Shown here: in pieces, positions 12,792-36,201 of the stretch | Position numbering within the stretch: the stretch's first letter is position 1 | Layout: the number at the start of each line of letters is the position of its first letter | From: Devosia sp. ZB163 | GTDB lineage: Bacteria > Pseudomonadota > Alphaproteobacteria > Rhizobiales > Devosiaceae | Assembly: GCF_028613635.1 (NCBI RefSeq) | Contig: NZ_JAQRMY010000002.1 | Location: 434,001-498,000 of the forward strand | Direction: 5' to 3' | DNA length: 64,000 nt | Notes under the pieces: generated by a model | What the model was told of the DNA's origin: nothing | Database searches by the model: none | Seen by the model: only the letters and a program-made list of their open reading frames with translations | Translations under genes and position numbers: made by a program

Positions 12792-14735
<1,944 letters not shown>

Positions 14736-14769
14736 GGCCTTAGCCCCTGCAAAAGCCCAACCATCGCGT

Positions 14770-14790
14770 CCCTCCCCCTTGAGGGGAGGG
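14770..14790 (+). terminator. Hairpin downstream of acs
   Basis: CCCTCCCC and GGGGAGGG form a perfect 8-bp stem around CTTGA, 35 bp after the acs stop. No T tract follows, so it may be a transcript-stabilising hairpin rather than an intrinsic terminator. Confidence 0.4.
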
Positions 14791-14917
14791 ATCGAGGGAG
14801 ATACTCCCCTTGATGGGGGCCATGCCGGCGCAGTGACTCATCGTACGGTGACTACCCCGCTTTCGCCGCACTTGTCCGTCACAAGCGCGCCCATCCGATC
14901 CCCGAAAGCTCAAATCG

Positions 14918-16003
14918 ATGCGCCTCGCCACGACACTCCTCGCGACGATCTTCGCCCTGTGCACTGCGCCCGTCATGGCACAGTCCCTCGAGCAGATGGC
15001 CGGCCAGATGATCGTCGTCGGCTTCGCCGGTGACTCGGTCGACGACAAGGGCGTGGTCGCCGCCCGCAAGCAGATTGCCGACGGCGAAATCGGCGGGGTC
15101 ATGTTCCTCAAGACCAACGTCGCGAGCCGCGAGGCCGTGACCGCCATGAACGCCGCCTTCCGCGACGCCGCGCCCGCCAACCTTCCGCCCTTCATTACCC
15201 TCGATCAGGAGGGCGGCCTGGTCGAGCGGCTGAGCAAGGATGTCGGCTTCAAGGAAATCGCCAACGCCGCCACCATTGCCGGCGACAACACGCCCGAACA
15301 GGCCCGCGCCGTCTATGCCGGCCTCGCCGAAGGCGTTCGCGACTGGGGCTTCAACGTCAACTTCGCCCCGGTCCTCGATCTGGCCGTGAATCCCGCCAAT
15401 ACGGTCATCGCCAGGAACGGCCGGGCCTATGGCAAGACTGCCGACGTCGTCGCCTCCTATGCCGCCGAGGTCGTCGCCGCGCACCACGATGCCGGGCTCA
15501 TCACCTCGCTGAAGCACTTTCCTGGCCACGGCTCGTCCACCGCCGACAGCCACGAGGGCTTCGTCGATATCACCCGCACCTGGAAGCCTGTCGAACTCGA
15601 TCCCTACCGCGCGCTGATCGCCAAGGGCTACGAGGACTTCGTCATGGTCGGCCACCTGATCAACACCGAGATCGATCCGTCCGGCCTGCCGTCGAGCCTG
15701 TCCAAGCCCTGGATCGAGGAAGTGCTGCGCGGCCAGCTTGGCTTCACCGGCGCGGTCATCACCGACGATCTCGAGATGGGCGCCATCCGTGATCACTTCA
15801 ATCTCGAAGAGACGGTCACCCGCGCCGTGCGCGCCGGCGTCGACGTGCTGCTCTTCTCCAACACCGCCAAGCCCCGCTCCTCGCTCGGCCCCGAAGTCCG
15901 CGACATCCTCGTCGCCGAAGCCAAGGCCGACCCCGAGTTCAAGGCCCGCATCGAAGAGAGCTATAAGCGCATCGTCGCCCTGAAGAGCCGCATCGGAAAG
16001 TAG
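14918..16003 (+). CDS. Exported glycoside hydrolase family 3 (beta-N-acetylhexosaminidase type)
   Basis: 361 aa with a clear signal peptide (MRLATTLLATIFALCTAPVMAQ). The TIM-barrel shows ITLDQEGGLVERL, NVNFAPVLDLAVNP, the diagnostic KHFPGHGSSTADSHEGF motif (K-H-F-P-G-H-G then D and H, the acid/base dyad of NagZ-type enzymes) and VITDDLEMGAI with the nucleophile Asp near residue 283. NagZ usually acts in the cytoplasm on GlcNAc-anhydroMurNAc; the signal peptide argues that this paralog works in the periplasm. Confidence 0.9.
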   Translation: MRLATTLLATIFALCTAPVMAQSLEQMAGQMIVVGFAGDSVDDKGVVAARKQIADGEIGGVMFLKTNVASREAVTAMNAAFRDAAPANLPPFITLDQEGGLVERLSKDVGFKEIANAATIAGDNTPEQARAVYAGLAEGVRDWGFNVNFAPVLDLAVNPANTVIARNGRAYGKTADVVASYAAEVVAAHHDAGLITSLKHFPGHGSSTADSHEGFVDITRTWKPVELDPYRALIAKGYEDFVMVGHLINTEIDPSGLPSSLSKPWIEEVLRGQLGFTGAVITDDLEMGAIRDHFNLEETVTRAVRAGVDVLLFSNTAKPRSSLGPEVRDILVAEAKADPEFKARIEESYKRIVALKSRIGK

Positions 16004-16040
16004 GGCGACTCCAAGTCGCCTCCTACCCACCAGCTGTTGT

Positions 16041-16054
16041 CCTGCGAGAGCAGG
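16041..16054. repeat. Short palindromic intergenic element
   Basis: CCTGC-GAGA-GCAGG, in a non-coding stretch of about 275 bp (16004-16279). A matching core, CCTGC-GACA-GCAGG, lies at 32117-32130 in another intergenic gap, suggesting a dispersed repeat. I see nothing else in this gap. Confidence 0.45.
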
Positions 16055-16279
16055 GACCCACATCCCAGTGCGTACCGGACGGAAGCTCTAGCTCCAGCCT
16101 GCGAACGCACCAACTGCACATCTTGCCACCCCCGCGGGCCTCATGCTGGTTGCAGTCGTCCTGTTCCTGCTCTAGCAGCAAGTTTTCCCCACCTGAGGCC
16201 GGTCGCTGGTCGAAAGCGCTCCCGCCCGTTGGTGCAAATGAGCTAAACTCCGGCCTCCGAAGTAGTGAAGGGTGTACGC

Positions 16280-17095
16280 ATGAGTGATGGAACCAGGGAG
16301 GTGCGGCGAGTTCGCGCGCTGTTTATCTCCGATGTCCATCTCGGCATGCGCCCGACCCGCATCCACCAGCTCATCGATTTCCTGCGCTGGCACGAGGCCG
16401 AGACCATCTACCTCGTCGGCGACATCATCGATGGCTGGCGCCTCGCCAAGGCCTGGCATTGGCCCGCCGAGTACCACCAGCTTGTCGAGGTCTTCCTCGA
16501 CAAGGCCCTCGCAGGTACCCGCATCGTCGTCCTCCCGGGCAATCACGACGAGTTCCTGCGCGAGTACCTCGGCACGTACTTCGGCGAAGTCGAGGTCGTC
16601 GATCGCACCATCCACACAACGGCGCAGGGCAAGACCTACGTCGTTATCCACGGCGACCAGTTCGACGTCGTCGTCGCCCATGCCAAATGGCTGGCGCATG
16701 TGGGCGATTGGGCCTATCGCGCCGCGTTGCGGCTCAACATCGCGGTCAACTGGGTGCGCCGCCGCATGGGTCTGACGTACTGGTCGCTCTCCGCCTGGGC
16801 CAAGCACAAGGTCAAGAACGCCGTCTCCGTCATCGGCCGCTTCGAGGAAGCGCTGACCCTCGAAGCGCGCGACAGCGGCGCCGACGGCGTCATCTGCGGT
16901 CACATCCACTACGCCGACATGCACGAGCGGCTGGGCATCCACTACGTCAACACCGGCGATTGGGTCGAAAGCTGCACCGCCGTGTGCGAAACCGACGAGG
17001 GCGTCCTCGAGCTCATCCGCTGGACCGAAGCTCCCCTCCCGCGCAAACCCCGCCGCCTGAGGCTCAGGCGCGCCCCAGCCGCTCCGGGTCAGTAA
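16280..17095 (+). CDS. UDP-2,3-diacylglucosamine diphosphatase-like metallophosphoesterase
   Basis: 271 aa from the ATG at 16280, preceded by AAGGGTG; an in-frame GTG at 16265 would add five residues. The calcineurin-like metal site is complete: FISDVHLG, LVGDIIDGW, LPGNHDEF, VIHGDQFD and CGHIHYAD. In the family it removes UMP from UDP-diacylglucosamine in lipid A synthesis or acts on a related lipid at the inner membrane face. Relatives of this longer type often precede a glycosyltransferase gene; here only a remnant of one follows. Confidence 0.85.
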   Translation: MSDGTREVRRVRALFISDVHLGMRPTRIHQLIDFLRWHEAETIYLVGDIIDGWRLAKAWHWPAEYHQLVEVFLDKALAGTRIVVLPGNHDEFLREYLGTYFGEVEVVDRTIHTTAQGKTYVVIHGDQFDVVVAHAKWLAHVGDWAYRAALRLNIAVNWVRRRMGLTYWSLSAWAKHKVKNAVSVIGRFEEALTLEARDSGADGVICGHIHYADMHERLGIHYVNTGDWVESCTAVCETDEGVLELIRWTEAPLPRKPRRLRLRRAPAAPGQ

Positions 17096-17114
17096 ACCGG
17101 GGCCGCAGTGCGCT

Positions 17115-17598
17115 GACCTCTCAGTCGGCCCGCACCTGCTCCATGTCGGCCGCATCTCGATCGAAAAGAACGTCGAGGCCTTCCTTTCCCTCGACCTCCC
17201 CGGCACCAAGATCGTCGTCGGCGACGGTCCGGCGCGCGCCGAGCTCCAGGGCCGTTATCCGGATGCGCTCTTCCTCGGCCTCAGGACCGGCTCCGAGCTC
17301 GCCGAAATCTACCGCTCGGCCGATGTCTTCGTCTTTCCCAGCCGCACCGACACCTTCGGCAACGTGCTGCTCGAAGCGCTTGCCAGCGGCCTGCCTGTTG
17401 CCGCCTTCCCGGTCACCGGACCGCGCGACATCCTCACCGATCCAGCCTGCGGTGCACCTCGCCGTCGCGGTCCTGCGCGCGTTGACCCTCGACCGGGGGG
17501 CAGCGCGCGCCCACGCCCGGAACTTCACCTGGTCGCGTTGCGCCGACATCTTCCTCGATACACTGGTGCCGGGCCGCAACGCCGCTCTCGCGGCGTGA
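17115..17598 (+). pseudogene. Remnant of a family-1/4 glycosyltransferase (5' truncated, frameshifted)
   Basis: Translating from about 17139 in frame gives LLHVGRISIEKNVEAFLSL, KIVVGDGPARAELQ, ADVFVFPSRTDTFGNVLLEA and LASGLPVAAFPVTGPRDIL, which is the nucleotide-sugar binding half of a GT-B glycosyltransferase. The N-terminal acceptor half (about 200 residues) is absent, and no start codon fits. Near 17440-17455 the frame shifts: the C-terminal helix (VLRALTLDRGAARAHARNF, ending before a TGA at 17596-17598) continues in another frame. It lies directly after the phosphoesterase, where an intact gene is usual in relatives (from memory). I infer a deletion followed by decay. Confidence 0.75.
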
Positions 17599-17701
17599 CC
17601 GCGACATAACGCTCCCCACCTTTGGGCCCGTTGATTATTTCTCCGTCTCATGAGCAAGGTCGGCCAAAGGGGCAGGATTCTCCCGCCCGGAGCACACCCT
17701 G

Positions 17702-18922
17702 ATGTCGTCGTCCACGGTCGCACCCCGGGTCTCCCCCGAGTTGCGCGCGGCCATCTACCATTTTGCCGTGTTCGGCTCGACAGGCGTCTCGTCGGTCTAC
17801 TTCGGCATCTGGCTCGCCAACCGTGGCATCGGCCCCGACGAGATCGGCATCATCAACGCGGCGCCGCTGCTCCTCATGCTGCTCCTCAACCAGCTGGTCG
17901 GCCGTATCGCCGATCGGATGCCCGATTGGCGCGGCGTCATCATTGTGCTGTCGCTCATCGCCGGCGCGGTGCCCATCGGCCTGTTCTTTGTCTCCGGCTT
18001 CTGGGGCATCCTGCTCGTCTGGGTGCTGTCGATCATGCCGGCCTTCGCGCTGGTCCCCGTCGTCGACGCCGCCACCTTGCGCATGACGCAGCGGCGCGGC
18101 ACGGATTTCAGCACCGTGCGGGCCTGGGGGACGGTGGGCTTCATGGTCACGACCTTCATTTCCGGCCCGCTCATCGCCTGGCTGGGTGACGGTGCCTTCG
18201 TACCGCTCTTCGTCGCCTTCGCGCTGCTGCGCGCGCTGCTCGCGTTCCAGCTGCCCCAGTTCCGGGCCGGTGAGGGGCAGACCAAGTCCGCCACCAAAGG
18301 CGCCCGCCGCCTGCGCGAAGTGCTCAAGCCCTGGTTTCTCCTGACCCTTGCCGGCGTCGCCATCCTCTATTCCACCCACGCTGTCATCAGCGCTTTCGGC
18401 GCGCTGCTCTGGAAGGAGCAGGGGATATCCGAGGGCCTGATCGGTCCGCTCGTCGCCACCATGGCCGCCGCCGAAGCCGTGATGATGTTCGTCTGGAGCC
18501 GGCTGAAGCTGCGCGTCTCGGCCCGCCACCTCATCCTGTTCGCATGCCTGGTCGCCGCCTTCCGCTGGACCGCCATGGCCTTCTCGCCGCCAGTCTGGGT
18601 GCTGTTCTGCCTGCAGATGCTGCACTCGGTGACCTTCGCCATGGGCTATCTCGGCGGCATCTACTTCCTCGCCAACTGGACCAGCGACGAGATCGCCGCC
18701 GAGGCCCAGGGCTTCTCCTACGTGCTGCAGCAGGCCATGAGCGTCCTCATCATCCTCGGCATGGGCTGGCTTGTCGCCGCCTTCGGCCCGATGGCATGGC
18801 TATTCGTCGGCGCCTTCTCGGTGCTCGGCGCCTTGTGCGTCGCGCTCTCGCTGAAACTGCAACCTAAGTCCGCCCACGCCGTCGCCCCCGACGAGATCGT
18901 GGCCTCCGATCCCACTCCCTGA
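17702..18922 (+). CDS. MFS transporter (HcaT/nucleoside-permease-like), copy 1
   Basis: 406 aa with about 12 membrane helices. It begins LRAAIYHFAVFGSTGVSSVYFGIWLANRGIG and has the MFS_1-like motif NQLVGRIADRMPDWR between helices 2 and 3 and RRGTDFSTVRAWGTVGFMV in the central half. The C-terminal half carries FLANWTSDEIAAEAQGF. Related proteins import aromatic acids or nucleosides; the substrate is not evident. The next gene is a clear paralog 12 bp downstream, so the two arose by tandem duplication. Confidence 0.88.
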   Translation: MSSSTVAPRVSPELRAAIYHFAVFGSTGVSSVYFGIWLANRGIGPDEIGIINAAPLLLMLLLNQLVGRIADRMPDWRGVIIVLSLIAGAVPIGLFFVSGFWGILLVWVLSIMPAFALVPVVDAATLRMTQRRGTDFSTVRAWGTVGFMVTTFISGPLIAWLGDGAFVPLFVAFALLRALLAFQLPQFRAGEGQTKSATKGARRLREVLKPWFLLTLAGVAILYSTHAVISAFGALLWKEQGISEGLIGPLVATMAAAEAVMMFVWSRLKLRVSARHLILFACLVAAFRWTAMAFSPPVWVLFCLQMLHSVTFAMGYLGGIYFLANWTSDEIAAEAQGFSYVLQQAMSVLIILGMGWLVAAFGPMAWLFVGAFSVLGALCVALSLKLQPKSAHAVAPDEIVASDPTP

Positions 18923-18934
18923 GTTTCCACTTTC

Positions 18935-20140
18935 ATGTCCGCCGTGACGATCGCCGAACCACGTCTGAGCCCCGAATTCCGGGCAACGATCTACTATTTC
19001 ATCCAGTACATGTCGGGCGCCGTCGTCACCGTCTATGGTGGCATCTGGTTCGCCGACCAGGGCCTGACGCCCGAGCAGATCGGCGTCCTCAACGCCGTGC
19101 CCGTGCTGATCATGCTCGCCCTCAACGTCGTGGTCGGCCGCATCGCCGACCGGGCCTCGGATTGGCGGCAGGTGATCATCCTCGGCTCGATTCTCGCCGG
19201 TCTCCTTCCCCTCGGCCTGTTCTTCGTCTCGGGCTTCTGGAGCATCCTCATCGTCTGGACGCTGCTCTCGCTGCCCGCTGCGGCCGTCGGCCCCGTGGTT
19301 GACGCCGCCACCATCCGCATGACGCGCCGCCGCGGCACGCAGTTCGGTCCCATCCGCGCCTGGGGCACGGTGGGTTACATGGTGATGCTCATCCTCACCG
19401 GCTTCGTCATCACCTGGCTTGGCGGCGCCATTTTCCTTCCGATGTTCGTCGGCCTGTCACTGCTGAGGACGATCACGGCCTTCGGCCTGCCGCGCTTCCG
19501 CGGCCCCGAAACTGCCGACTCGGTAGCCCCGCATGCCGGTGCCGCCCGCCACCTGGGTGAGGCGATGAAGCCCTTCTTCGTGCTGCCGCTCGTCGGCTTC
19601 TCGATGGTCTACGGCACGCACATCGTGCTCAACGCCTTCCAGGGCCTCTTGTGGAAGGAACAGGGCTTCTCCGCCGATATCATCGGCCCGCTCCTCGCGG
19701 TCGGGGCTCTTGCCGAAGCCGGCCTGATGTTCGTCTTCGGCCGGGTCCAGTCGCGCTTTTCGGCGCGCAGCCTCATCCTCGCCTCGGCCGTAGTCGCGGT
19801 GTTCCGCTGGTTCTGCATGGCCCTCCAGCCCGGCATCGAGTTCCTGATCCCGCTTCAGGCCCTCAACGCCATCACCTTCGCGCTCGGCTACATGGGCTGC
19901 ATGCACTTCATCGCCAACTGGACCAGCGACGAGATTGCGGCCGAAGCGCAGGGCTTCTTCCAGATGCTGCAGCAGGGCATGAGCGTCATCGCCCTTGTCG
20001 GCTTTGGCTGGCTCATCGGCCTCATGGGGGCCCAGGCCTACTTCATCGCGGCCGCCTTCGCCGGCGTCGGCGGCATCCTGATCTGGCTCTCCATCGCCAT
20101 GCAGGGCCGGAAGCAACCGGGCGGCGCGCGCCTCGGCTAG
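18935..20140 (+). CDS. MFS transporter (HcaT/nucleoside-permease-like), copy 2
   Basis: 401 aa, same architecture as the upstream gene. Shared landmarks are LSPEFRATIYYFIQYMSGAVV, VVGRIADRASDWRQVIIL, RRRGTQFGPIRAWGTVGYM, LWKEQGFSADIIGPLLA and IANWTSDEIAAEAQGF. Twelve hydrophobic helices are apparent. Divergence is spread along the whole length, so the duplication is not recent; the pair may take different but related substrates or form a heteromer. Spacing of 12 bp implies co-transcription. Confidence 0.88.
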   Translation: MSAVTIAEPRLSPEFRATIYYFIQYMSGAVVTVYGGIWFADQGLTPEQIGVLNAVPVLIMLALNVVVGRIADRASDWRQVIILGSILAGLLPLGLFFVSGFWSILIVWTLLSLPAAAVGPVVDAATIRMTRRRGTQFGPIRAWGTVGYMVMLILTGFVITWLGGAIFLPMFVGLSLLRTITAFGLPRFRGPETADSVAPHAGAARHLGEAMKPFFVLPLVGFSMVYGTHIVLNAFQGLLWKEQGFSADIIGPLLAVGALAEAGLMFVFGRVQSRFSARSLILASAVVAVFRWFCMALQPGIEFLIPLQALNAITFALGYMGCMHFIANWTSDEIAAEAQGFFQMLQQGMSVIALVGFGWLIGLMGAQAYFIAAAFAGVGGILIWLSIAMQGRKQPGGARLG

Positions 20141-20512: not shown

Positions 20513-23500
20513 TTAGCCCAGTCGGCCGCTCGCATGGGCCAGCATGGTGTAGACCCGGCCGCGGTCGCTGAGCAGGTACTCGCGAGTCTCGCCCGCGGGG
20601 TTCCCACCTGTCGCTGCGCGCTTCAGCAACTGCTCGAACTCGGCCATGTAGGTCGCCGAGGTCTTGGCGAAGTCCTGGTCGCGCTGGATGCGCTTGCGCA
20701 CCTCGTCATAGGTCGCCTGGCCGCCCAGCGTGTAGATGCGGCGCGAGAAGACGTTCTGCTCGCCCGACTGGTAGCGCTGCCAGGCGTCGGCCAACGCGGC
20801 CGGCTCCATGGCCTTGGCGATCTCTTCCGTGAGGGTCGAGAGGTTCTGCTGCGCCACGGGGGCAGGGGCCGGAGCCGGTGCGCTGGCCGCGGCCGGAGTA
20901 CCGGCGCGGTTCAGCACGTCGCGGAGCCAGCCGCCACTTTCCTCGGACTTGGCCGGGGCGGGGGTCGGAGCAGGAGCCGGCTTTTCGGCGACAGGCTGCG
21001 GCCGCGGAGCGGTGACGGTCGGTGCCGGGCTTTCGAACCGCGGTGTGGTCCGGATCGGCTCGGCCGGACGGACCAGCTCGGGGCGCGGCTCCGGCTTGCT
21101 CGGGGCTTCATCGCGGATGAAGGACGAGCGCGTCGGCGCCGGCGGCGGGCGGCGGTCGTTGAGGTCGTGCGTCGCCGGCTGCGACCGGACGATGGCATTG
21201 AGCTCGGCCAGGGCCTCGATCTGCTCGGCCACGACGCGGCGCATCGCGGCGGCGCTCGACTTGGTCTCCTCGGGCAGTTCCATGACGCCACGGGCGAGCT
21301 CCGACCGGGTGCTCTCGAGCTCGGCGCCCACTTCCTTGGCGGTAGCGCGCATGGCCGAGGCCGTCTCGTTGAACCGCTGCGTGGCGGCTTCGAGGGCCTG
21401 CTGCATCTCGAGGATCATGGTCGCCTGCGTCTGGCGCAGGGCATCGGCGGCGCGCTGGCTCTCGTTGGAGGCCGTGTCGGTGAACGAGCCGAGCTGGGTC
21501 GCCACACGGTGCGAGGTGCTTTCCAGCGCTTCCTCGAGCAGGTTGGTGCTCTTGCCGAGCACCGACTGCATGTCGGTCGTGGCGCCGGCGAGGGCCGACT
21601 GCAGCTTGTCCGTGGTGCCGTTGAGCGCCTGTTCGAGCTGCGTCGTGGTCTCGCTGAGCGAGGTCTGGACGCGTTCGGCCGTCCCGGTCAGCACGTGCTC
21701 GAGCTGGCCGGTGGTCTCGCCGAGCGAGGTCTGGATCTGCTCGGCGGTGCTGGTAAGCACCGACTGCAGCTGGCCGGTCGTGTCGGCGAGGGCGGCATTG
21801 ATCGTGCCGGTCGTCGCCTCCAGCGTCTCGGCAACGTTCGAGGTCGTGCTCGCCAGCAGCTGCTCCATCGACTCGCGTGCCGAGACGAGCCGCACTTCGG
21901 TCTCTTCCACGGTCTCGGAGATGGACTGGGCGAAGCCGCGCATGCGGCTGTCGATCTCGTCGGCACGAGCGGTGAAGGCGTGAGCCAGCTCGTCCATGGC
22001 ATGGCGGCGCTCGTCGAGGTTGGCGAGCGTCATCGCGCCGGTGTTACTGAGGTTCTGCGCCGCCGTGTCGAGGCTCTTGGCCTCGCTGTCGAGGTTGCCG
22101 AGGATGGCGCCGAACTCGTTGACCATCGAGGCGATGGCCGTCTGCAGCGCGCCGACATGCTCGGTGACCATGCGACCGGCTTCTTCCGTCGAGCCGATCG
22201 CCTCGCGGACCGTGCTCGAGTAGGTGGCGGTCTGCTGGGCGACGCTGGTCTCGAGGTTGGCGAGGTTCGCCGTCGAGGCGTCCAGCACCTTCTGCAGCAG
22301 CATGTTGGAGTCGTTGAGCTTGCCGAGCGCCGCCGTCACATCGGTGAGGATGCGCGAGGTCGACTGGCTCATCAGCTCCTCGGCCTGCGAGGCGTTGGTG
22401 ATCAGCGCCTGGGCCAGCACGTTGCTGTGGCCGGCGAGGCTCATCTCGAGCTGTGCCGAACGGTCGGAGACGAGCGCCGAGAAGGCGTCGGTCTGCTCGG
22501 AGACCACTCGGTTGATCTCGGCCACCTTGCCGCCGATTGCATCGGCGGCGGCCACGGCCTTGATCGAGATCAGCTCGTCGATGTTGCCCGACGCGCGCTG
22601 GATCTGCTCGAGCGCGTTGCGGACTGCGACGTCCATGCGATCGGCGGTCGAGGTGACGTCCTCGGCGATGATCTGCGTCGCTTCGACAATACGGCGGGAG
22701 ATGGTCTCCTCGATGCGGTCGGCGCCGGCCTCGAGGTCGGTCATCGACTGCACCAGCGCCGTGTTGATCGCGGTGTTCAGCGACGCAAGGCGCTCGGCCG
22801 TGATGTCGGCACGGGCGGTGATGGCCTCGGGCAGGGTGCCCAGGCGCTGGTCGACCATGTCGGTGATGGCCTTGCGGGCCGAGTTGACGCCGGTCTCGAT
22901 GATGTCGGCCGCCTTGCGAGCGCTGTCGCCCACGGTCGAGGCCGCACCGTCGATGCGGGCGGTGACGCCGGACTCGGCGTCGGCAATCCTGAGGATTGCA
23001 GCGTCGAGGCCACGGCCGAGCGACTCGTTGATTTCCGAAACCTTGGTCTCGATGACGGTCGCGACGGCGCCGGCACGCTCCGACATGACGTCGGTGACAT
23101 TGCGCAGGGTGCCTTCGATCTTGTCGCGGGCATTATTGCCCTGCGCCTCGATCGTCCGTGCCAGCTCGCCGGTGCGGTCGCCGATGGCAGCCGCGATACC
23201 GACAGTGTGCGAGCCGAGCGTTTCAGCCAGCTGCTGGGTACGGGTGTTGAGGGCTTCGGCAAGCTCGGCCGAGCGGGTCGAGACGGTCGCCGCCAGCGCC
23301 TGCGTGCGCTGGTCGAGGCTGTCGCCGATCTGCTGGGCATGCTGCTGCAGCGCGATGTCGATCGCCTGGGTGCGTTCCAGCACGGACTGGTCGAGCGCCT
23401 GAGTGCGGCTGGCAACGGCGTCGTCCAGTTCCTTGGCGCGGCCGGTGAGGATCTGATCGAACTGCTCGACCCGGTTGCCGAGCGCAACGTCGATCGCCTG

Positions 23501-25447
23501 CGCGTGGGTGATGATATTGGTGTCCATGTGCCGCGCATGGCCGGCAATGGTCTCGTCGAACGCCTTCACGTGCTGGTCGAGCGCCGAGGTGATCTCGCCA
23601 TGACGGCTCGCCAGCGACTCGTTGAGCAGCTGCACGCGCGTGTCCAGCGCATCGGCGATGATCTGCGTGTGCCCTTCGAGGGAGTCCGAGATTTCGCTCG
23701 AACGGTTGGCGATGGCCTCGGTGATCTGCTTGGTCCGCTGGCCGAGCGTCTCGGTCATCTCGCGGGTGCGCTGCGCCACCATGTCGTTGAAGCTCTCGGC
23801 CTTCTCGTCGAGGGCCATCTCAAGCACGTTCGCGCGGGCCGAGAAGCTCGCGTTGTTCTTGTCGAGAGCAGCGATCAGCTTATCGCCCTTGTCGCCGATC
23901 ACGCTGTCGAGCGTCGACAGACGGCTGTCGATGGCCGTTGAGATTTCGTCGAGGCGGGCGTCGAACTGGGCGAGGTTCTGCGAACCGGCGCCGGTCAGGG
24001 TGACACGCGCGCGCTCAGTGGTGTCGTCGAGAGCGCCCGACAGCTCGATCATCGCGGATTGCAGCCGCGACTCCATCGAGTTGACCTGGATCTGCACCTG
24101 CTCGTCGAGCTGGCGCGACAGGCCGCCCAGCAGTTGCTCGGCCTCACGGGAACGGCCCGTGATGTCGGAGGCGATGCGGGTGCCGATCATGTCGAGTGCG
24201 CTCGACACTTCGTGGCCGCGGTCGCGCAACTGGTCGAGCAGGGTGATGCCGCCCTGGCTCAGGAGCTTGGCCAGCGACGACGTGCGGTTGTCGATCGCGT
24301 CGGAGAGTGTCACGGCGCGGCTGTCGAGGGCCTCGGTCAGCGAGTTCATGCGGCCGTCGATGACGGCGCTCAGTTCCTGCGTGCGGCTCTCGAACGCGCC
24401 GGACAGGGTTCCTGCCTTGTCCTCGAGCGTGATGTTCAGGCGCGACGCGGAGTCGTCGAGAGCGACCAGCAGGTGGCTGGTGCGCTGGTCGATCAGCGAC
24501 ACGAAGCTCTCGGTGCGCTCGCCGAAGGCGCCGTTGAGCGAATTGCCGGCGGTCTCGAGTGCCTTGGTCAGGTTGCCACCGGACTCGACGATCGTGCCCG
24601 CGATGCGCTGCGAAATCATGTCGAGGTCGAACACGAGGCCCGTATGGCTCTCGGTGATGGCCTCGCGCACGCGCTCGGTGTTGGTAATGACAGCTTCGCG
24701 CTGGCTGGCCAGTTCCTGGATCAGGGCGCGCATACGCGATTCATTGTCGGAATAGGTGCGCTCGAGTGCGGTGACCTCGTTGTGGATCATCACTTCGAGC
24801 TCGCCGGCGCGCGACAGGGCGCGCTCGAGGCCGTCGCCCAGCGCGTTCACTTCACGGCGCACGGCCTGGCCGACCGACGCGACCTTCTCGGACGCGGTGG
24901 TTTCGGGTTCGGCGAGGCGGATCGCCGCCTGTGTCACGGCCGCCGCGGCGTTGCGGAGATCCTGTGCGCGGCGAATGAGGGTGGCGATGGCGAAGATGCC
25001 GATCACCGGCACCACTGCGAGCGCGACGAGACCGATGAAGTCGTTCGAGCCCCAGAAGGCCGCCGTGCCCATGTCGCCGCCGTTGCGGATCAGCGCGACG
25101 AGGAGGATGGCCACCACCCAGCCGGCCGAAACGATGCCCGCGACCATGGTCGGCGCGCCCGATGACTTGGACTGCAGGCCATAGAGGATCTTGGAGGAGG
25201 GGAAGCGGTCGTCATTGGCGACCGATCCGGTCTGCGCCGCGAACTTGTCCGCGATGCGCTGCCGCTCCGAGCGAGCCGAGTTGTCGCGCGGGATCGGCTT
25301 GGGGCCCATCTTCTCGGCGGGCGCCGCTTCCTCCGGCTCCGCCGGTTTGTCGAGGTTGGCGAACACCGAGTCCTTCAGCGCGTCTTCGACGGCCGAGAAC
25401 GCCAAGGTTGCAGGGTCGTTCTGGGGTGCGGTGGTCTTTTTGGCCAT
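20513..25447 (-). CDS. Giant hendecad-repeat membrane protein, growth-pole-ring (GPR)-like
   Basis: 1644 aa. N-terminal ~100 residues are hydrophilic, then two membrane spans (101-120 and 137-158). Residues ~160-1370 are predicted almost entirely helical and built of 11-residue repeats of the apolipoprotein A1/A4/E type. A Pro/Ala-rich linker follows, and a compact C-terminal domain (LADAWQRYQSGEQNVFSRRI through VYTMLAHASGRLG). This architecture matches the large apolipoprotein-like GPR protein required for polar growth in Agrobacterium, which is longer. The product is expected to be anchored in the inner membrane near the growing pole. The gene is divergent from an Hpt gene with a CtrA-type site between. 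Orthology is inferred from architecture. Confidence 0.8.
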   Translation of the reverse strand: MAKKTTAPQNDPATLAFSAVEDALKDSVFANLDKPAEPEEAAPAEKMGPKPIPRDNSARSERQRIADKFAAQTGSVANDDRFPSSKILYGLQSKSSGAPTMVAGIVSAGWVVAILLVALIRNGGDMGTAAFWGSNDFIGLVALAVVPVIGIFAIATLIRRAQDLRNAAAAVTQAAIRLAEPETTASEKVASVGQAVRREVNALGDGLERALSRAGELEVMIHNEVTALERTYSDNESRMRALIQELASQREAVITNTERVREAITESHTGLVFDLDMISQRIAGTIVESGGNLTKALETAGNSLNGAFGERTESFVSLIDQRTSHLLVALDDSASRLNITLEDKAGTLSGAFESRTQELSAVIDGRMNSLTEALDSRAVTLSDAIDNRTSSLAKLLSQGGITLLDQLRDRGHEVSSALDMIGTRIASDITGRSREAEQLLGGLSRQLDEQVQIQVNSMESRLQSAMIELSGALDDTTERARVTLTGAGSQNLAQFDARLDEISTAIDSRLSTLDSVIGDKGDKLIAALDKNNASFSARANVLEMALDEKAESFNDMVAQRTREMTETLGQRTKQITEAIANRSSEISDSLEGHTQIIADALDTRVQLLNESLASRHGEITSALDQHVKAFDETIAGHARHMDTNIITHAQAIDVALGNRVEQFDQILTGRAKELDDAVASRTQALDQSVLERTQAIDIALQQHAQQIGDSLDQRTQALAATVSTRSAELAEALNTRTQQLAETLGSHTVGIAAAIGDRTGELARTIEAQGNNARDKIEGTLRNVTDVMSERAGAVATVIETKVSEINESLGRGLDAAILRIADAESGVTARIDGAASTVGDSARKAADIIETGVNSARKAITDMVDQRLGTLPEAITARADITAERLASLNTAINTALVQSMTDLEAGADRIEETISRRIVEATQIIAEDVTSTADRMDVAVRNALEQIQRASGNIDELISIKAVAAADAIGGKVAEINRVVSEQTDAFSALVSDRSAQLEMSLAGHSNVLAQALITNASQAEELMSQSTSRILTDVTAALGKLNDSNMLLQKVLDASTANLANLETSVAQQTATYSSTVREAIGSTEEAGRMVTEHVGALQTAIASMVNEFGAILGNLDSEAKSLDTAAQNLSNTGAMTLANLDERRHAMDELAHAFTARADEIDSRMRGFAQSISETVEETEVRLVSARESMEQLLASTTSNVAETLEATTGTINAALADTTGQLQSVLTSTAEQIQTSLGETTGQLEHVLTGTAERVQTSLSETTTQLEQALNGTTDKLQSALAGATTDMQSVLGKSTNLLEEALESTSHRVATQLGSFTDTASNESQRAADALRQTQATMILEMQQALEAATQRFNETASAMRATAKEVGAELESTRSELARGVMELPEETKSSAAAMRRVVAEQIEALAELNAIVRSQPATHDLNDRRPPPAPTRSSFIRDEAPSKPEPRPELVRPAEPIRTTPRFESPAPTVTAPRPQPVAEKPAPAPTPAPAKSEESGGWLRDVLNRAGTPAAASAPAPAPAPVAQQNLSTLTEEIAKAMEPAALADAWQRYQSGEQNVFSRRIYTLGGQATYDEVRKRIQRDQDFAKTSATYMAEFEQLLKRAATGGNPAGETREYLLSDRGRVYTMLAHASGRLG
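21485..21781 (-). repeat. Nine tandem 11-residue repeats in the GPR-like protein
   Basis: The encoded segment divides without gaps into nine 11-mers, e.g. TTGQLQSVLTS, TAEQIQTSLGE, TTGQLEHVLTG, TAERVQTSLSE. Hydrophobic residues recur at fixed positions, which gives a hendecad (11/3) helix with one continuous apolar stripe. Confidence 0.85.
23123..23815 (-). repeat. Twenty-one tandem 11-residue repeats in the GPR-like protein
   Basis: From ALDEKAESFND to TIEAQGNNARD the protein splits into 21 consecutive 11-mers with the loose pattern xLxxRTxxLxx (AVASRTQALDQ, SLDQRTQALAA, ALNTRTQQLAE). No insertions break the register over 231 residues. Confidence 0.85.
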
Positions 25448-25792
25448 ACTCTCAATACTCTCGCATCGGCACTCGGCAAGCGATCAGAGCTGGCATTGGA
25501 CCACCCACCGAGTTCCGGTAAGCCGTCCAAATTGGGTAAAATGCGATTCAAAAGCCCCGCAGTCTTCCCATTACGCCCCACGCCGCCGCGCGCTAGGTAA
25601 CCTCAAAGATACATACAATTTGAGCCAAACCGAGCGCATTCTTAAGCAAGGGTTAATTTCCGGTGGGAATGCGGCCGGTTAAGGGCATAGATAAAGTTGT
25701 CCACATTCGTTTGTCTGGCCCTTCATTCACCCCCGCTAGCCTCAACCCCAATGCGTTCCTTGGAGAACGCGAAGAAGAATGGGGTGCAGGGC
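25448..25792. promoter_or_regulatory. Divergent promoter region with CtrA-type site
   Basis: Non-coding gap of 345 bp between the GPR-like gene (leftward) and the Hpt gene (rightward). TTAA-GCAAGGG-TTAA at 25642-25656 is an exact TTAA-N7-TTAA match to the CtrA recognition sequence of Alphaproteobacteria; a further TTAA half lies at 25679-25682. A TTGTCCACA at 25697-25705 resembles a DnaA box with one mismatch. The region is lower in GC than its neighbours. Confidence 0.55.
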
Positions 25793-26182
25793 ATGGCACA
25801 GCGAAATGTGGTCGAAGCGGGGCAGGGGGCCCTCCAGCGCAATCTCGAAGACGGTCCGATCGACCTGCGTCACCTCGAGCAGCAGTCGCTCGGCGATCCT
25901 GGTCTGCAGGAAGAGGTCCTTCGTCTCTACTCCGATATGTCGGGCGTCTATCTCACCCGTATAGAGGAGAGCGCCACGCCTGAGGACATGCTCAAGCACC
26001 TTCATACGCTCAAGAGCGCAGCCGCGGGCATCGGCGCCTGGCAGGTCCGCGATCTCGCCCGTCATGCCGAGGATGCACTGCGCGAAGGCGCGTCCGTCGA
26101 CCCGGACCTGATCGCCGACGTCGCGCGGGCCGTGCGCGAGTGCCAGGACTACATCGCCGATTTCGTGAGCAGCCTCGACTGA
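25793..26182 (+). CDS. Hpt-domain phosphotransfer protein
   Basis: 129 aa from the ATG at 25793; in-frame ATG at 25751 and TTG at 25697 are alternatives without clear ribosome sites. The Hpt four-helix bundle is recognisable: DLRHLEQQSLGDPGLQEEVL, then KHLHTLKSAAAGIGAW with the phospho-accepting His71 in HTLKS, then DLARHAEDALREG and a final helix. Hpt proteins relay phosphate between a receiver domain and another regulator. No kinase or receiver gene adjoins, so the partners are elsewhere. Sharing an intergenic region with the GPR-like gene hints at a cell-cycle or polarity role (inference). Confidence 0.85.
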   Translation: MAQRNVVEAGQGALQRNLEDGPIDLRHLEQQSLGDPGLQEEVLRLYSDMSGVYLTRIEESATPEDMLKHLHTLKSAAAGIGAWQVRDLARHAEDALREGASVDPDLIADVARAVRECQDYIADFVSSLD

Positions 26183-26581
<399 letters not shown>

Positions 26582-26592
26582 ACCTTGATTTG

Positions 26593-26636
26593 GACCATTC
26601 GATGGTCTAAATAGATGGACCATATAATTGGTCCAT
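26593..26636 (+). promoter_or_regulatory. Promoter/operator of the VapBC operon with two palindromes
   Basis: Two related inverted repeats: GACCAT-TCG-ATGGTC (26593-26607) and arms ATGGACCA/TGGTCCAT around TATAAT (26615-26636). A TTGATT at 26585-26590 and TAAATA at 26608-26613 are 17 bp apart, so the first palindrome would sit exactly in the spacer of that promoter. Autoregulation by the antitoxin/toxin complex is the usual pattern in such operons. Confidence 0.6.
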
Positions 26637-26641
26637 GACTC

Positions 26642-26902
26642 ATGAACATTTCCGTCAGCGAAGCCAAAGCGCTGCTCGCTGAGCTCGTCCGGCGAGCTGA
26701 GCAGGGCGAGGAGGTCGTGCTGACGCGTCATGGGCAGCCAGTCGCTCAGATTGGTCCAATTCGGAGAGCACGCCTCACGCCCGCCGAACGGGCACGTGTT
26801 ATCCGCGATGTCATGAAGTCTGCCGCCGGCAAGGCATCGCCTGGCCCGGATGCGGCCCATAGCCAAGACTTCCTGTACGACGAGAACGGTCTTCCCAATT
26901 GA
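26642..26902 (+). CDS. vapB: Phd/YefM-type antitoxin (VapB)
   Basis: 86 aa. The N-terminus (MNISVSEAKALLAELVRRA, EQGEEVVLTRHGQPVAQIGP) is the Phd/YefM DNA-binding fold; the C-terminal part (from residue ~45) should wrap the toxin. It ends in an ATTGA overlap with the PIN-domain gene, so the pair is translationally coupled. Palindromes directly upstream are probable operators. It likely neutralises the adjacent RNase and represses its own operon. Confidence 0.88.
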   Translation: MNISVSEAKALLAELVRRAEQGEEVVLTRHGQPVAQIGPIRRARLTPAERARVIRDVMKSAAGKASPGPDAAHSQDFLYDENGLPN

Positions 26903-27282
26903 TCGCCCTCGATACCTCTGCGCTGCTTGCGATCGTTCTCAACGAGCCGATGGCATCAGGGTGTACGAGAGCCGTGACGGAAGCCGACCGCATCCTGATA
27001 TCTGCGGGAACCATGGCGGAAGCGCTCATGGTCGCTCAGTACCGATTGATCGGCGACGAGATGCGCGATCTGCTGGCGCGGCTAGATATTGAGGTAATCC
27101 CGGTAACACAGGTGGTCGCTGAGCGTGTGGCTTCGGCCAGCCGCCGGTGGGGAAAGGGTGTTCACCCGGCAGGGCTCAATTACGGCGACTGCTTCGCCTA
27201 TGCCTTGGCAGAGGAGTACGACTGCCCGCTGCTCTACATCGGCAATGACTTCGCTCAGACCGATATCCGCAGCGCGCTTTGA
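26899..27282 (+). CDS. vapC: PIN-domain ribonuclease toxin (VapC)
   Basis: 127 aa from a TTG start at 26899 that overlaps the antitoxin stop by 4 bp. The PIN active-site acids are all there: Asp5 (IALDTSAL), Glu41 (MAEALMVA), Asp97 (NYGDCFAYALA) and Asp117 (GNDFAQTD). VapC toxins cleave specific tRNAs or rRNA in a Mg-dependent way when the antitoxin is degraded. The module sits between ferredoxin and the cysG operon and looks like an intact insertion. Confidence 0.9.
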   Translation: MIALDTSALLAIVLNEPMASGCTRAVTEADRILISAGTMAEALMVAQYRLIGDEMRDLLARLDIEVIPVTQVVAERVASASRRWGKGVHPAGLNYGDCFAYALAEEYDCPLLYIGNDFAQTDIRSAL

Positions 27283-27394
27283 GCTTGCCGTAGCGTCACC
27301 ATTCCACCATCAGGGCGGTGCATGGATTCTTTTGCCGAGACGGGTTGCCGGGCCTCAACGCAATTCTAATCCGTACCTGCTACGAGAAACATTA

Positions 27395-27417
27395 AAGCTA
27401 TTGTTTTTCAATAGCTT
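27395..27417. promoter_or_regulatory. Perfect inverted repeat before the sulfur assimilation operon
   Basis: AAGCTATTG-TTTTT-CAATAGCTT, 9-bp arms, ending 49 bp before the cysG start in an AT-rich leader. Weak stem composition and lack of a following T run argue against a terminator. It is a candidate binding site for a sulfur-responsive regulator (LysR or Rrf2 type), identity unknown. Confidence 0.55.
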
Positions 27418-27466
27418 GTTACAAAGAGCCGATGTGGGTATGTATCCGGCTTCCGAAAGGCCGTGA

Positions 27467-28858
27467 ATGGGTGAACTGACAACATTTCCTGTCAGCTACA
27501 AAGTCGAGGGTAAGCGCATCGTCATAGTCGGCGGTGGAGAAGAAGCCCTCAGCAAAGCCCGGTTGGCAATTAAGACTACTGCTTCAGTCGTCATTATCTC
27601 CGCCAACATCGAAGCCGACTTCTCCGATCTGCCCGTCGCCATTCTAGCGCGTCCCTTCGAGGATGCCGATCTCGTTGATGCGGCTCTGGTTTTCGTTGCC
27701 GATCACGGTCCCGATGGCGAGGCCGCAAAGCGCGCGGCCCGCGCTGCGCGGGTGCCGCTGAACGTCGTCGACGTTCCCGAGGAATGCGATTTCTACACTC
27801 CGGCGATCATCGACCGGGCCCCGGTGTCCATCGCCGTGGCCTCAGAGGGCGATGCACCCGTACTCTCCCGCCTGATCCGCGCCCGCATTGAAGCTGCGCT
27901 CTCGCCGAACCTCGGCGCGCTGGCTCGGCTTGCCGGTTCCATGCGCGAGAAGGTTGCGGCTGTGCTCGAGGGCTCCCGTGCCCGCCGGTTCTACGAGGAA
28001 CTGGTCACCTCTCCCGAGGTCGAGGCCGAGCTTATCCGCGGGCAGGGGACCGAGAGGGCCGACGAGCTCCTCGCGCAGCACGTCGAGAAGGGCGAGAGCC
28101 CCGGCGTCGTCTGGCTCATTGGTGCGGGCCCCGGCGCCGAGGACCTGCTGACCCTGCGCGCCCAGCGCCTGCTGCAGGAAGCCGACGTCATCGTCCATGA
28201 TCACCTCGTCCCCGCCGCGGCGGTCGAGATGGGCCGCCGCGATGCCGAGCGCATTCTGGTCGGCAAGCAGAAGGGCCACCACTCTTTCACCCAGGCCGAG
28301 ATCAACGCGCTGATCGTGCGGCTCGGCAAGGCCGGCAAGCGCGTCGCCCGCCTCAAGGGCGGCGATCCCATGGTCTTCGGCCGCGCTGGCGAGGAGATCG
28401 ATGCGCTGAACGAAGCGGGCATCGCCTATCACGTCGTCCCAGGTGTCACCGCGGCCCTTGCCGCTGCAGCAGATACGGCGACGCCGGTGACGTTGCGCAG
28501 GGTTTCGACCGGCTTTGTCCTCGCCACGGCGCACGGCGCCGAGTCCGAGGAACTCAGGCACTGGGCGTCGCTCGCCTCGACCGGCCTCACCCTCGCCCTC
28601 TACATGGGCAAGTCCGTCGCCGGACCGACCGCCTCGCGGTTGATCGCGGAAGGCGCCAGCGCGTCTATCCCGATCGGCGTCGTCGTGCGGGCAGGGCGCA
28701 AGGACCGGGTCCTCTACCGCGGCACTCTGGGCGGCCTCGCCGCCGACGAGCTCGAGCTCGAGGATGGCCCGGCAATCATTTTCGTGGGCGAGGCGATCGC
28801 CCATGGTGACTGGCGCGGCGCGATCGAGATCGCCCGCTCCGAATTTAAGGTGGCGTAG
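27467..28858 (+). CDS. cysG: Siroheme synthase CysG (trifunctional)
   Basis: 463 aa. The first ~150 residues are the precorrin-2 dehydrogenase/ferrochelatase part (VEGKRIVIVGGGEEALSKA, NVVDVPEECDFYTPAII). From residue ~215 follows the uroporphyrinogen III methyltransferase part (VWLIGAGPGAEDLLTLRAQR, VIVHDHLV, RLKGGDPMVFGRAGEEI, VPGVTAALAAAA). It makes siroheme, the cofactor of the sulfite reductase encoded two genes later. The start is the ATG at 27467 with GAAAGG upstream. Downstream genes follow with 7 bp or overlapping, indicating one operon. Confidence 0.96.
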   Translation: MGELTTFPVSYKVEGKRIVIVGGGEEALSKARLAIKTTASVVIISANIEADFSDLPVAILARPFEDADLVDAALVFVADHGPDGEAAKRAARAARVPLNVVDVPEECDFYTPAIIDRAPVSIAVASEGDAPVLSRLIRARIEAALSPNLGALARLAGSMREKVAAVLEGSRARRFYEELVTSPEVEAELIRGQGTERADELLAQHVEKGESPGVVWLIGAGPGAEDLLTLRAQRLLQEADVIVHDHLVPAAAVEMGRRDAERILVGKQKGHHSFTQAEINALIVRLGKAGKRVARLKGGDPMVFGRAGEEIDALNEAGIAYHVVPGVTAALAAAADTATPVTLRRVSTGFVLATAHGAESEELRHWASLASTGLTLALYMGKSVAGPTASRLIAEGASASIPIGVVVRAGRKDRVLYRGTLGGLAADELELEDGPAIIFVGEAIAHGDWRGAIEIARSEFKVA

Positions 28859-28865
28859 GAAGAGA

Positions 28866-29171
28866 ATGGAAATCCTCACCGGCAATGAGCTGATGAGCGG
28901 CGCGACGGTCTATCTGGACCGGTCCGGCAAGTGGGTCGAAGAGCTGCAGCAGGCACGGGTCTTCCTCAAGGAAGAGTCGGAGGCTAAGGACGCGGCTCTG
29001 GCGGTCACCAAGAAGGGTGGGCGCGTCATTTCTCTTGAGGTCGAAACGGTCACGCTTCGCGACGGGGCGATCTACCCCGACCGCATCCGCGAACGTATCC
29101 GCGCCGAGGGCCCGACTGCCCCACGCTTCGACCGGCAGCATCTCGACGAGGACGGCCATGTATCGATATGA
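28866..29171 (+). CDS. DUF2849 protein
   Basis: 101 aa from the ATG at 28866, preceded by GGAAGAG. MEILTGNELMSGATVYLD opens the small DUF2849 family, which is nearly always found between cysG and the sulfite reductase gene in Alphaproteobacteria. It overlaps the next gene by 14 bp. No catalytic motif is seen; a role in sulfite reductase assembly or electron supply is a guess from position. Confidence 0.88.
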   Translation: MEILTGNELMSGATVYLDRSGKWVEELQQARVFLKEESEAKDAALAVTKKGGRVISLEVETVTLRDGAIYPDRIRERIRAEGPTAPRFDRQHLDEDGHVSI

Positions 29172-30816
29172 CGAGTTCGACGCCGCGTTCGTGAAGGAAC
29201 GTACGGCGCAGTTTTCCGACCAGGTGGCCCGCCGTCTCAGCGGCGAGCTGAACGAGGACCAGTTCCGGCCGCTGCGCCTGATGAACGGCCTCTACCTGCA
29301 GTTGCACGCCTACATGCTGCGCATCGCGGTGCCCTACGGCACGATGAACTCCCGTCAGATGCGCACGCTGGCCCACATCGCGCGTACCTATGATCGCGGT
29401 TACGGCCACTTCACCACGCGCCAGAACATCCAGTTCAACTGGCCCAAGCTCCGCGACATCCCGAAGATCCTCGAGGATCTCGCTGCGGTCGAGATGCACG
29501 CCATCCAGACCTCGGGCAACTGCATCCGCAACATCACGACCGACCAGTTCGCCGGCGCCGCCGCCGACGAGATCATCGATCCGCGTCCGGTTGCCGAAAT
29601 CCTGCGCCAGTGGTCGTCGCTGCACCCTGAGTTCAGCTACCTGCCGCGCAAGTTCAAGATCGCCATGTCCGGCTCGACCGCCGACCGCGCCGCGATACGC
29701 TTCCACGACATCGGCCTGCAGGCGACGACCAACGGCCTGGGCGAGATCGGCTGGCAGGTCTGGGTCGGTGGCGGCCTCGGCCGTACTCCGATGATCGCCA
29801 AGATGATCTCGGGCTTCGTCCCGCACGAGCACCTGCTCGCCTATCTCGAGAGCATCCTGCGCGTCTACAACCGCTATGGCCGCCGGGACAACAAGTACAA
29901 GGCGCGCATCAAGATCCTCGTCCACGAGACTGGCATCGAGACCATCCGCGAGCAGGTCGAGGAAGAGTTCGCCCACGTGAAGGGCGGTGTGCTCACCCTC
30001 CCGCAGGAAGAGCTTGACCGGATCACCAGGTACTTCGCCGAGCCCGACTACGAGTTGGTCAACCAGACCAGCGTCGACGTGGCCCGCGAGAAGATCCTCA
30101 ACCCGCCATACGGTCGCTGGCTCGAGCGCAACCTCAACGCCCACCGCCAGGCGGGCTATGTCTCGATCACCATCTCGCTGAAGCCCGTAGGCGGCGCCCC
30201 CGGCGATGCCACCGACAAGCAGATGGACGTGATCGCGGACCTCGCCGAGCGCTACTCGCACGACGAGCTGCGCGTGAGCCACGAGCAGAACATCGTCCTG
30301 CCTTACGTCAAGATCACCGATCTGCCCTCGGTCTATGCCACGCTTGTCGAACATGGCCTCGCCGAAGGCAATGCGGGCCAGATCACTGATATCATCTGCT
30401 GCCCGGGCCTCGATTTCTGCGCGCTGGCCAACGCCCGCTCGATCCCTCTCGCGCAGGAACTGACCCGCAAGTTCGCCGCCCCCGAGCGGCAGGCCGAGAT
30501 CGGCGACCTGAAGATCAAGATCTCGGGGTGCATCAATGCCTGCGGCCACCACCATGTCGGCCACATCGGCATTCTCGGCGTCGAGAAGAAGGGCACTGAG
30601 CTCTACCAGATCACGGTCGGCGGCGACGCCACCGAGAACGCCGCCATCGGCGACATCCTGGGTCACGGTTTCGTTGCCGAGGATGTCCCAAACGCCATCG
30701 AGCGGTTGGTCGATGCCTACATCGCCCGGCGCGAAAGCCCGAGCGAGCCGTTCATCGCGGCCTTCCGCCGGCTCGGCAAGCAGCCCTTCAAGGAGGCCTT
30801 GTACGGCGATGCTTGA
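29158..30816 (+). CDS. cysI: Nitrite/sulfite reductase, siroheme [4Fe-4S] (CysI type)
   Basis: 552 aa from the ATG at 29158. Two ferredoxin-like half domains and two siroheme-binding domains are recognisable: GYGHFTTRQNIQFNWP, TSGNCIRNITTDQFAG, and the cluster ligands ICCPGLDFC (C-x5-C near 415-421) with SGCINACGHHHVGHIG (C-x3-C near 458-462). With cysG and cysH around it, reduction of sulfite to sulfide is the likely job. No CysJ flavoprotein is present, and the nearby ferredoxin and ferredoxin reductase genes suggest ferredoxin as donor. Confidence 0.95.
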   Translation: MYRYDEFDAAFVKERTAQFSDQVARRLSGELNEDQFRPLRLMNGLYLQLHAYMLRIAVPYGTMNSRQMRTLAHIARTYDRGYGHFTTRQNIQFNWPKLRDIPKILEDLAAVEMHAIQTSGNCIRNITTDQFAGAAADEIIDPRPVAEILRQWSSLHPEFSYLPRKFKIAMSGSTADRAAIRFHDIGLQATTNGLGEIGWQVWVGGGLGRTPMIAKMISGFVPHEHLLAYLESILRVYNRYGRRDNKYKARIKILVHETGIETIREQVEEEFAHVKGGVLTLPQEELDRITRYFAEPDYELVNQTSVDVAREKILNPPYGRWLERNLNAHRQAGYVSITISLKPVGGAPGDATDKQMDVIADLAERYSHDELRVSHEQNIVLPYVKITDLPSVYATLVEHGLAEGNAGQITDIICCPGLDFCALANARSIPLAQELTRKFAAPERQAEIGDLKIKISGCINACGHHHVGHIGILGVEKKGTELYQITVGGDATENAAIGDILGHGFVAEDVPNAIERLVDAYIARRESPSEPFIAAFRRLGKQPFKEALYGDA

Positions 30817-32092: not shown

Positions 32093-32108
32093 ACACGCCA
32101 CGATCCCG

Positions 32109-33259
<1,151 letters not shown>

Positions 33260-33384
33260 CCCCGGCACGGCCTCTCCCTGATCCTCCCCCGCGTGGCGGG
33301 GGAGGCGCCCCAAGCTCGAAGTTGCGCTTTGCAGCCATTTTCCAGTAATGGGGCACGCCCCACCTCACCGGAGCCGATGCACCG

Positions 33385-33717
33385 ATGAAGATCCACGTTA
33401 CAGACCAGTCCGGCGTTGAACACGAGCTCGAAGGGCTCGACGGCTGGCGCACGATGGAAGTGATCCGCGACTGGGGCCTCAACATCAAGGCCGAGTGCGG
33501 CGGCGCCTGCTCCTGCGCCACCTGTCACGTCTATGTCGAGGATGGCTGGTTCGACAAACTTCCGCCGCCCAGCGACGACGAGGAAGATCTGCTCTATTCG
33601 ACGCTCGACAAGAAGCCCAACAGCCGCCTGAGCTGCCAGATCCTGCTCAGCGACGAACTCGACGGCATGCGCGTCACTCTGGCTCCCAGCGCCGCCAAGG
33701 ACTCCGAAGCCGCCTGA
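33385..33717 (+). CDS. 2Fe-2S ferredoxin (adrenodoxin type), second copy
   Basis: 110 aa. Ligands Cys38, Cys44 and Cys47 lie in [15 protein letters not shown] and the fourth in SCQILLSDEL. Paralog of the ferredoxin at 26.3 kb, with an acidic loop (PPPSDDEEDLL) typical of partner-binding surfaces and a short extra C-terminus (SAAKDSEAA). It follows the ferredoxin reductase by 125 bp and may be its direct partner. Confidence 0.93.
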   Translation: MKIHVTDQSGVEHELEGLDGWRTMEVIRDWGLNIKAECGGACSCATCHVYVEDGWFDKLPPPSDDEEDLLYSTLDKKPNSRLSCQILLSDELDGMRVTLAPSAAKDSEAA

Positions 33718-33720
33718 GGC

Positions 33721-34966: not shown

Positions 34967-35009
34967 GTCTGCTGCTCATGACGAAAGTTTGAGGGGGCAG
35001 CCACCAACA

Positions 35010-36188: not shown

Positions 36189-36201
36189 GCCGATACGAAA
36201 T

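Follow-up and report, generated by a model that had tools for sequence, protein, structure and literature searches.

What does the very long gene on the minus strand of this DNA (20513..25447; ATG start, 1644 amino acids, coordinates including the stop codon) encode, and what do the parts of its product contribute? (The window is the whole 64-kb stretch that we analysed.) A sequence-only reading had proposed a relative of GPR, the growth-pole-ring protein of Agrobacterium. In rhizobia that lack MreB, GPR and its Sinorhizobium counterpart RgsE are among the few known organizers that aim wall growth at one pole. GPR is described as forming a ring at the pole where growth occurs (PMC8262873), RgsE as located at the growing pole only (PMC7327166), and the RgsE of Brucella as located at the new pole (PMC9938171). 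This kind of protein is already known, and the window gene adds one member to it. The useful additions are a rule for the length steps of the rod, a conserved C-terminal domain, a genomic context with an Hpt gene and a CtrA-type site, and the presence of the gene in bacteria that have MreB.

The gene is an ortholog of GPR and RgsE

We compared the window protein with RgsE (SMc00190) through UIJ93612.1 from Sinorhizobium meliloti strain Ak57, which has 2089 residues, the same as the published length of RgsE (PMC7327166). In pairwise comparisons, the N-termini are identical at 105 of 224 positions (E = 1e-57) and the C-termini at 49 of 111 positions (E = 5e-36). In both the window and S. meliloti, gpr is divergent from an Hpt-domain gene that is followed by a 2Fe-2S ferredoxin gene. 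Also, the window's own genome has just one match to the C-terminal profile and one to the N-terminal profile. Because both end domains match RgsE, the neighborhood (our own yardstick for orthology and not a published one) is shared, and the gene is single-copy, its orthology with Agrobacterium GPR and Sinorhizobium RgsE is well supported. The end-domain search and the synteny check that the sequence-only reading had proposed both bear out its GPR-like identification. (The S. meliloti gene, at 13533-19802 of locus L057 from CP090106.1, is annotated as "kinesin," and the record itself, a chromosome-sized 3.7 Mb from Ak57, is filed in PLSDB as plasmid pSymB.)

The same reading had treated the shortness of the protein as telling. 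We surveyed the order through 51 families, each represented once. Counted from the N-terminal domain up to the stop, complete representatives span 732-2747 residues, and the window protein has 1559. By this comparison, the shorter length is ordinary for the family. The reading's label of a probable Devosia relative was left unconfirmed: in a DNA search of PLSDB with window positions 26000-46000, the 10 of 18 records that were listed matched at conserved enzyme genes only, and 16S typing succeeded for 0 of 13 genomes.

For alignments A1 and A2, we used 15 of the 33 frames that we collected and left out 12 short pieces (L001-L012), the divergent L015, and five paralogue loci (L025-L029). Some congeners (genomes G002, G013, G016, and G010) encode these paralogues in addition to gpr, one or two per genome and about 1220-1980 amino acids long. 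They have the C-terminal domain and lie away from the Hpt-ferredoxin pair.

Anatomy of the protein

The N-terminal conserved domain (residues 83-290; 24578..25201, minus strand) was delimited from alignments, an AlphaFold2 model, and hydrophobicity windows. In Kyte-Doolittle windows, two stretches of it are hydrophobic, one near residues 97-124 (25076-25159, minus strand) and one near residues 131-161 (24965-25057, minus strand). When residues 78-277 are modeled, helices form at 98-121 and 135-179, and one long helix comes after them (mean pLDDT 82.5, pTM 0.39), in agreement with the two N-terminal membrane spans that had been proposed.

Next is a rod of 11-residue repeats, or hendecads (residues 291-1421; 21185..24577, minus strand). 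The protein matches the apolipoprotein family PF01442 with 151.6 bits (E = 2.7e-44; the curated cut-off is 90), so the description of this region as apolipoprotein-like helix stands, with a length of about 1130 residues, near the ~1200 that had been claimed. The linker (residues 1422-1534; 20846..21184, minus strand) was recognized by its composition, with 27 prolines and 20 alanines among 113 residues. A short motif, GGW-LRDVL, lies within it near residue 1505. The last part is an all-helical C-terminal domain (residues 1535-1644; 20516..20845, minus strand). Both the Pro/Ala linker and the compact C-terminal domain were foreseen from the sequence.

Neither the N-terminal nor the C-terminal domain matches any Pfam or NCBIfam family at that family's cut-off. 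We set aside two weak Pfam matches on the C-terminal domain that fall under the cut-off (PAS_4, 0.0056; DUF6113, 0.018). The model of this domain is all helix (pLDDT 65.6) and had no fold match in the PDB or among viral structures at E of 0.001 or less. The domain is nevertheless widespread: it is present in 47 of the 48 family representatives of the order with a complete 3' end (12 of the 51 representatives had contributed to the profiles). Outside the order, it is in the same frame in 18 of the 20 relatives that we fetched; the other two are L140, which meets a contig end, and L157, which has a weak N-terminal match. The suggestion that the last ~110 residues form a conserved, undescribed module is supported: the domain is conserved across genera and has no family entry. 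In Agrobacterium GPR, removing the last 221 residues is reported to give the strongest failure of complementation, and removing 332 residues less (PMC8262873). A conserved domain without a family entry is a testable handle on polar growth.

Length changes of the rod are mostly whole hendecads

When the rod (residues 291-1430) is matched to itself, lags of 11, 22, and 33 give identities of 0.169, 0.159, and 0.164, compared with 0.048-0.109 for other lags from 2 to 39. Its hydrophobic moment at a periodicity of 11/3 is 7.13, while the maximum from 500 shuffles is 2.56. Across 28 successive units of 11 residues, hydrophobic residues fill position 1 in 93% of the units and position 8 in 79%, and Arg or His predominates at position 4. 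The rod of S. meliloti RgsE has the same 11-residue period (moment 6.92).

We then counted insertions and deletions of 5 or more residues between disjoint closest pairs of proteins with 60%-98.5% identity; indels of less than 5 residues (3 and 1 cases) and places gapped on both sides lie outside the count. The set for the window's genus has 14 proteins (L167 failed the motif filter). Multiples of 11 account for 45 of 61 indels in Rhizobiaceae (35 pairs) and 14 of 17 in the window's genus (7 pairs). Over all pairs, where shared events are counted more than once, the figures become 1003 of 1843 and 177 of 199, respectively. As a control, the last 360 residues give multiples of 11 in 2 of 26 cases for Rhizobiaceae and in 6 of 17 for the window's genus, where this stretch includes some rod. 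When random indels were introduced into the window protein, the aligner returned multiples of 11 in 7 of 79 cases. For GPR itself, two coiled coils of 21 residues have been predicted in a paper that does not use the terms "hendecad" or "11-residue"; the same paper also reports that GPR with a 20-residue coiled-coil deletion disturbed cell shape in trans to the wild type and still formed paired foci (PMC8262873). The phase rule predicts which deletions should be tolerated: 22 residues, as opposed to 20 or 21.

Conserved neighbors and a CtrA-type site

The Hpt-domain gene is divergent from gpr (25697..26182, plus strand; PF01627, 1.1e-8). Its start codon is uncertain, with further in-frame starts at 25751, 25760, and 25784. 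The 2Fe-2S ferredoxin gene follows (26261..26581, plus strand; PF00111, 4.4e-12). Scanning named genomes with the N-terminal alignment, we confirmed at least 573 loci and kept the best 80, which are all near Rhizobiaceae or Rhizobiales, with none titled Agrobacterium. In 79 of these best 80 loci, the ferredoxin gene is divergently upstream of gpr, and the exception (L090) is a contig of 4.2 kb. Using an iterated Hpt profile, we detected Hpt at 116 of 133 loci; by this profile, all 5 paralogue loci lack it. The acceptor histidine is kept in 115 of the 116. Across the 51 family representatives, Hpt is divergent in 41 and ferredoxin in 42, and one or both neighbors are present in 46. At one representative, L189, both neighbors are on the same strand as gpr. 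The conserved Hpt neighbor is a further testable handle on polar growth.

Some other features of these loci are worth recording. On its other side, gpr adjoins two tandem MFS_1_like transporter genes (17702-18922 and 18935-20140 in the window), which also adjoin gpr in the three congeneric loci L030-L032. A PIN-domain reading frame lies between the ferredoxin and cysG genes (26899-27282). At L126, the gpr frame is interrupted: one frame has 921 residues, and the C-terminal domain lies further downstream of it, which is either an assembly error or a broken gene.

The gpr-hpt intergenic region contains TTAA-N7-TTAA (25642..25656, plus strand), which by its motif match is a putative CtrA site. 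It is the only occurrence in the 64-kb window, and none arose in 100 shuffles. All 14 loci of the genus have the motif upstream of gpr, and the sequence of its spacer differs among them. Both TTAA-N7-TTAA and the half-site TTAACCAT are named as CtrA sites in PMC11527210. Of the 80 Rhizobiaceae loci that we kept, 77 have the half-site upstream of gpr, although these loci are kin and hence not 77 independent events; 60 scrambled octamers average 1.42 loci, with one reaching 16. The full box is in 33 of these 80 loci and missing from 47. Elsewhere the signal is weaker: either motif was found at 3 of 11 other loci of the order and at 8 of 19 beyond it, and just 1 of the 4 paralogue loci has one. 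The main text of a study of CtrA in S. meliloti (PMC4433202) does not name SMc00190. Given the motifs, CtrA probably times the transcription of gpr from this intergenic site, which would tie growth of the pole to the cell cycle. Within the same region (25448-25696), a stretch near TCGGTTTGCCTCAAATTGnATGTAT, downstream of TTAA-N7-TTAA, varies very little among the 14 loci of the genus and is perhaps the promoter of gpr.

In the titles, abstracts, and passages that we searched, no paper links GPR/RgsE with CtrA, the Hpt neighbor, or hendecads; supplements and most subscription papers were outside the scope of this search.

Distribution and coexistence with MreB

Within the order, 243 of 249 genomes match the N-terminal profile (12 of them were used in the profile), including all 215 of good quality, and the six genomes without a match are 56-88% complete. 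At the level of the class, 53 of 385 genomes match, and 48 of these 53 are outside the order. Distant homologs of RgsE have been reported from Emcibacterales and Rhodospirillales (PMC7327166). We fetched 20 of the 48 relatives for inspection, and Hpt is nearby in 10 of them. Furthermore, in a named bacterium from neither of these two orders, a 774-residue hypothetical protein of Sphingomonas parapaucimobilis YK209 (WP_347091011.1) has the C-terminal domain (62 bits, 2.9e-21). The machinery had been called specific to Rhizobiales, which these relatives do not support. (In the Hpt gene divergent from the Sphingomonas gene, at 5643-5936 of L169 from NZ_CP155749.1, the usual acceptor histidine is seemingly missing (ALRLKG), so from its sequence this may be a pseudo-Hpt.)

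Because control genomes from Corynebacterium and archaea score over the Pfam cut-off for MreB, which is unspecific on its own, we called MreB at an E value of 1e-60 or above 250 bits. By this threshold, the window's own genome has no MreB (best score 56.7 bits, none at 1e-60). Its weak matches to the MreB profile are frames of 648, 639, 443, and 464 amino acids, which we took for proteins of the DnaK/FtsA type. MreB is also absent at 1e-60 from four named Rhizobiaceae. In contrast to the suggestion of mutual exclusion between Rgs proteins and MreB (PMC7327166), 26 of the 27 genomes with MreB, among the 249 of the order, match the N-terminal profile of gpr, which implies that gpr is not exclusive with MreB. 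(The exception, G146, is 88% complete and in 370 contigs.) Outside the order, MreB is present in all 20 of the tested genomes with an N-terminal match (best scores of 319 to 507 bits). This wider sample speaks against exclusion, at least for RgsE.

We also asked whether the length of the protein goes with MreB. In the 26 MreB-bearing genomes of the order with a measured frame, it has 1498 amino acids or fewer. Frames above 1500 occur in none of 9 MreB-bearing families versus 27 of 42 MreB-less families (Fisher p = 4e-4), in a tally made by hand that counts f31, which holds both kinds, as MreB-bearing and that includes some frames cut by contig ends. On a quick tree of the N-terminal domains (7 of 48 inner branches starred), four independent pairs gave 0.0 in the same direction, 0.7 in the other, and 3.3 with no difference, so the link fails on this tree. 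Outside the order, a 2029-residue frame coexists with MreB. We make no claim that the rod grew longer through loss of MreB.

A model for the protein and its alternatives

We infer the function of the window gene from its relatives, and the mechanism from those relatives and the anatomy of the protein. The N-terminal two-helix hairpin would anchor the protein in the inner membrane, and the second membrane helix would continue into the rod, which would lie in the cytoplasm and comprise about 100 hendecads. The helical C-terminal domain, borne on a flexible Pro/Ala linker, would recruit partners. Several copies might assemble at the pole as a ring or scaffold and so steer wall synthesis to the site of growth there, with CtrA timing transcription from the gpr-hpt intergenic site. 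Taken as a whole, this account of a GPR/RgsE ortholog with an anchored hendecad rod, a role as polar scaffold, and timing by CtrA seems likely to us.

We read the rod mainly as a phase-locked coiled-coil spacer because its repeats stay in register with two strongly hydrophobic positions in every eleven, because it has just 3 prolines in 1140 residues, and because its length changes by whole hendecads. It could instead be a true apolipoprotein-like surface that binds lipid, with the protein organizing the membrane lipid of the pole, as Zupan and colleagues propose (PMC8262873). The PF01442 match over the cut-off fits this, and so does the best match of the rod in the PDB, which is solved ApoA-IV, at an E value of 1.2e-4 only; the step rule would be compatible with lipid binding as well. 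The hydrophobic content (VILMFWY) of the rod and of the ApoA-IV fragment is the same (25.3% and 25.5%), so content cannot separate a coiled coil from lipid binding. However, the ApoA-IV fragment has 8 prolines in 204 residues, far more densely than the rod, and most of the rod's strong hydrophobics are at positions 1 and 8, flanked by Arg or His at position 4. We consider the lipid-binding explanation unlikely. The multiples of 11 might also reflect only the way that mutations arise, by unequal exchange between 33-base repeats, and not selection on helical phase. There is one tandem DNA repeat in the rod (period 66 bases, 2.4 copies, 78% matches), as this explanation would have it, but no other tandem array was found in the gene, and with a protein identity of only 0.169 at lag 11, most of the repeats share little DNA. 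Moreover, among the 16 Rhizobiaceae indels that are not multiples of 11, 12 can be composed of 11s and 7s, and such sums preserve the phase. A purely mutational origin of the steps seems doubtful.

A broader alternative is that the main job of the ortholog is something other than polar growth, which would be a later use in some lineages. The coexistence with MreB both inside and outside the order, in the genomes counted above, is what one would expect from this. The window's own genome lacks MreB, however, and the orthologs of three relatives are reported at the growth pole (PMC8262873, PMC7327166, PMC9938171), so we think it improbable for this gene. One tentative synthesis, which we do not quite favor, is that GPR and the neighboring Hpt form an ancient alphaproteobacterial polar module, timed by CtrA, that is older than polar growth and exists alongside MreB. 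Where growth is polar, GPR would have become the growth-pole scaffold, with its coiled-coil rod as a register-locked ruler that changes length only by whole hendecads or by some other whole number of helical turns, and with an undescribed helical recruitment domain at its end. Through Hpt, the ring would be connected to a phosphorelay.

Comparison with known systems

Two kinds of long coiled-coil proteins, the ZorA tail and SpiroCoCo, resemble the window protein in their long helical repeat and have weak NCBIfam scores. We set these identities aside as they are far under the cut-offs (22.6 versus 190 bits and 18.4 versus 75 bits). Apolipoprotein A-IV and PF01442 share the 11-residue amphipathic pattern, but unlike ApoA-IV, the window protein has almost no proline in its rod and has a membrane hairpin and conserved end domains. 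The Sphingomonas protein is similar in its two hydrophobic N-terminal spans, its C-terminal domain, and a divergent gene annotated as Hpt; it differs in that its rod has no hendecad signal and the N-terminal profile does not match it. RgsE of S. meliloti shares both end domains, the hendecad rod, the Pro-rich linker, and the divergent Hpt and ferredoxin neighbors. It is longer than the window protein (2089 versus 1644 amino acids), and its rod also has 18- and 29-residue spacings. GPR of Agrobacterium tumefaciens (Atu1348) is longer still, with 2115 amino acids versus 1644, and in its published architecture it has the same two N-terminal spans, PF01442 repeats, Pro-rich region, and a C-terminus that is needed for function (PMC8262873).
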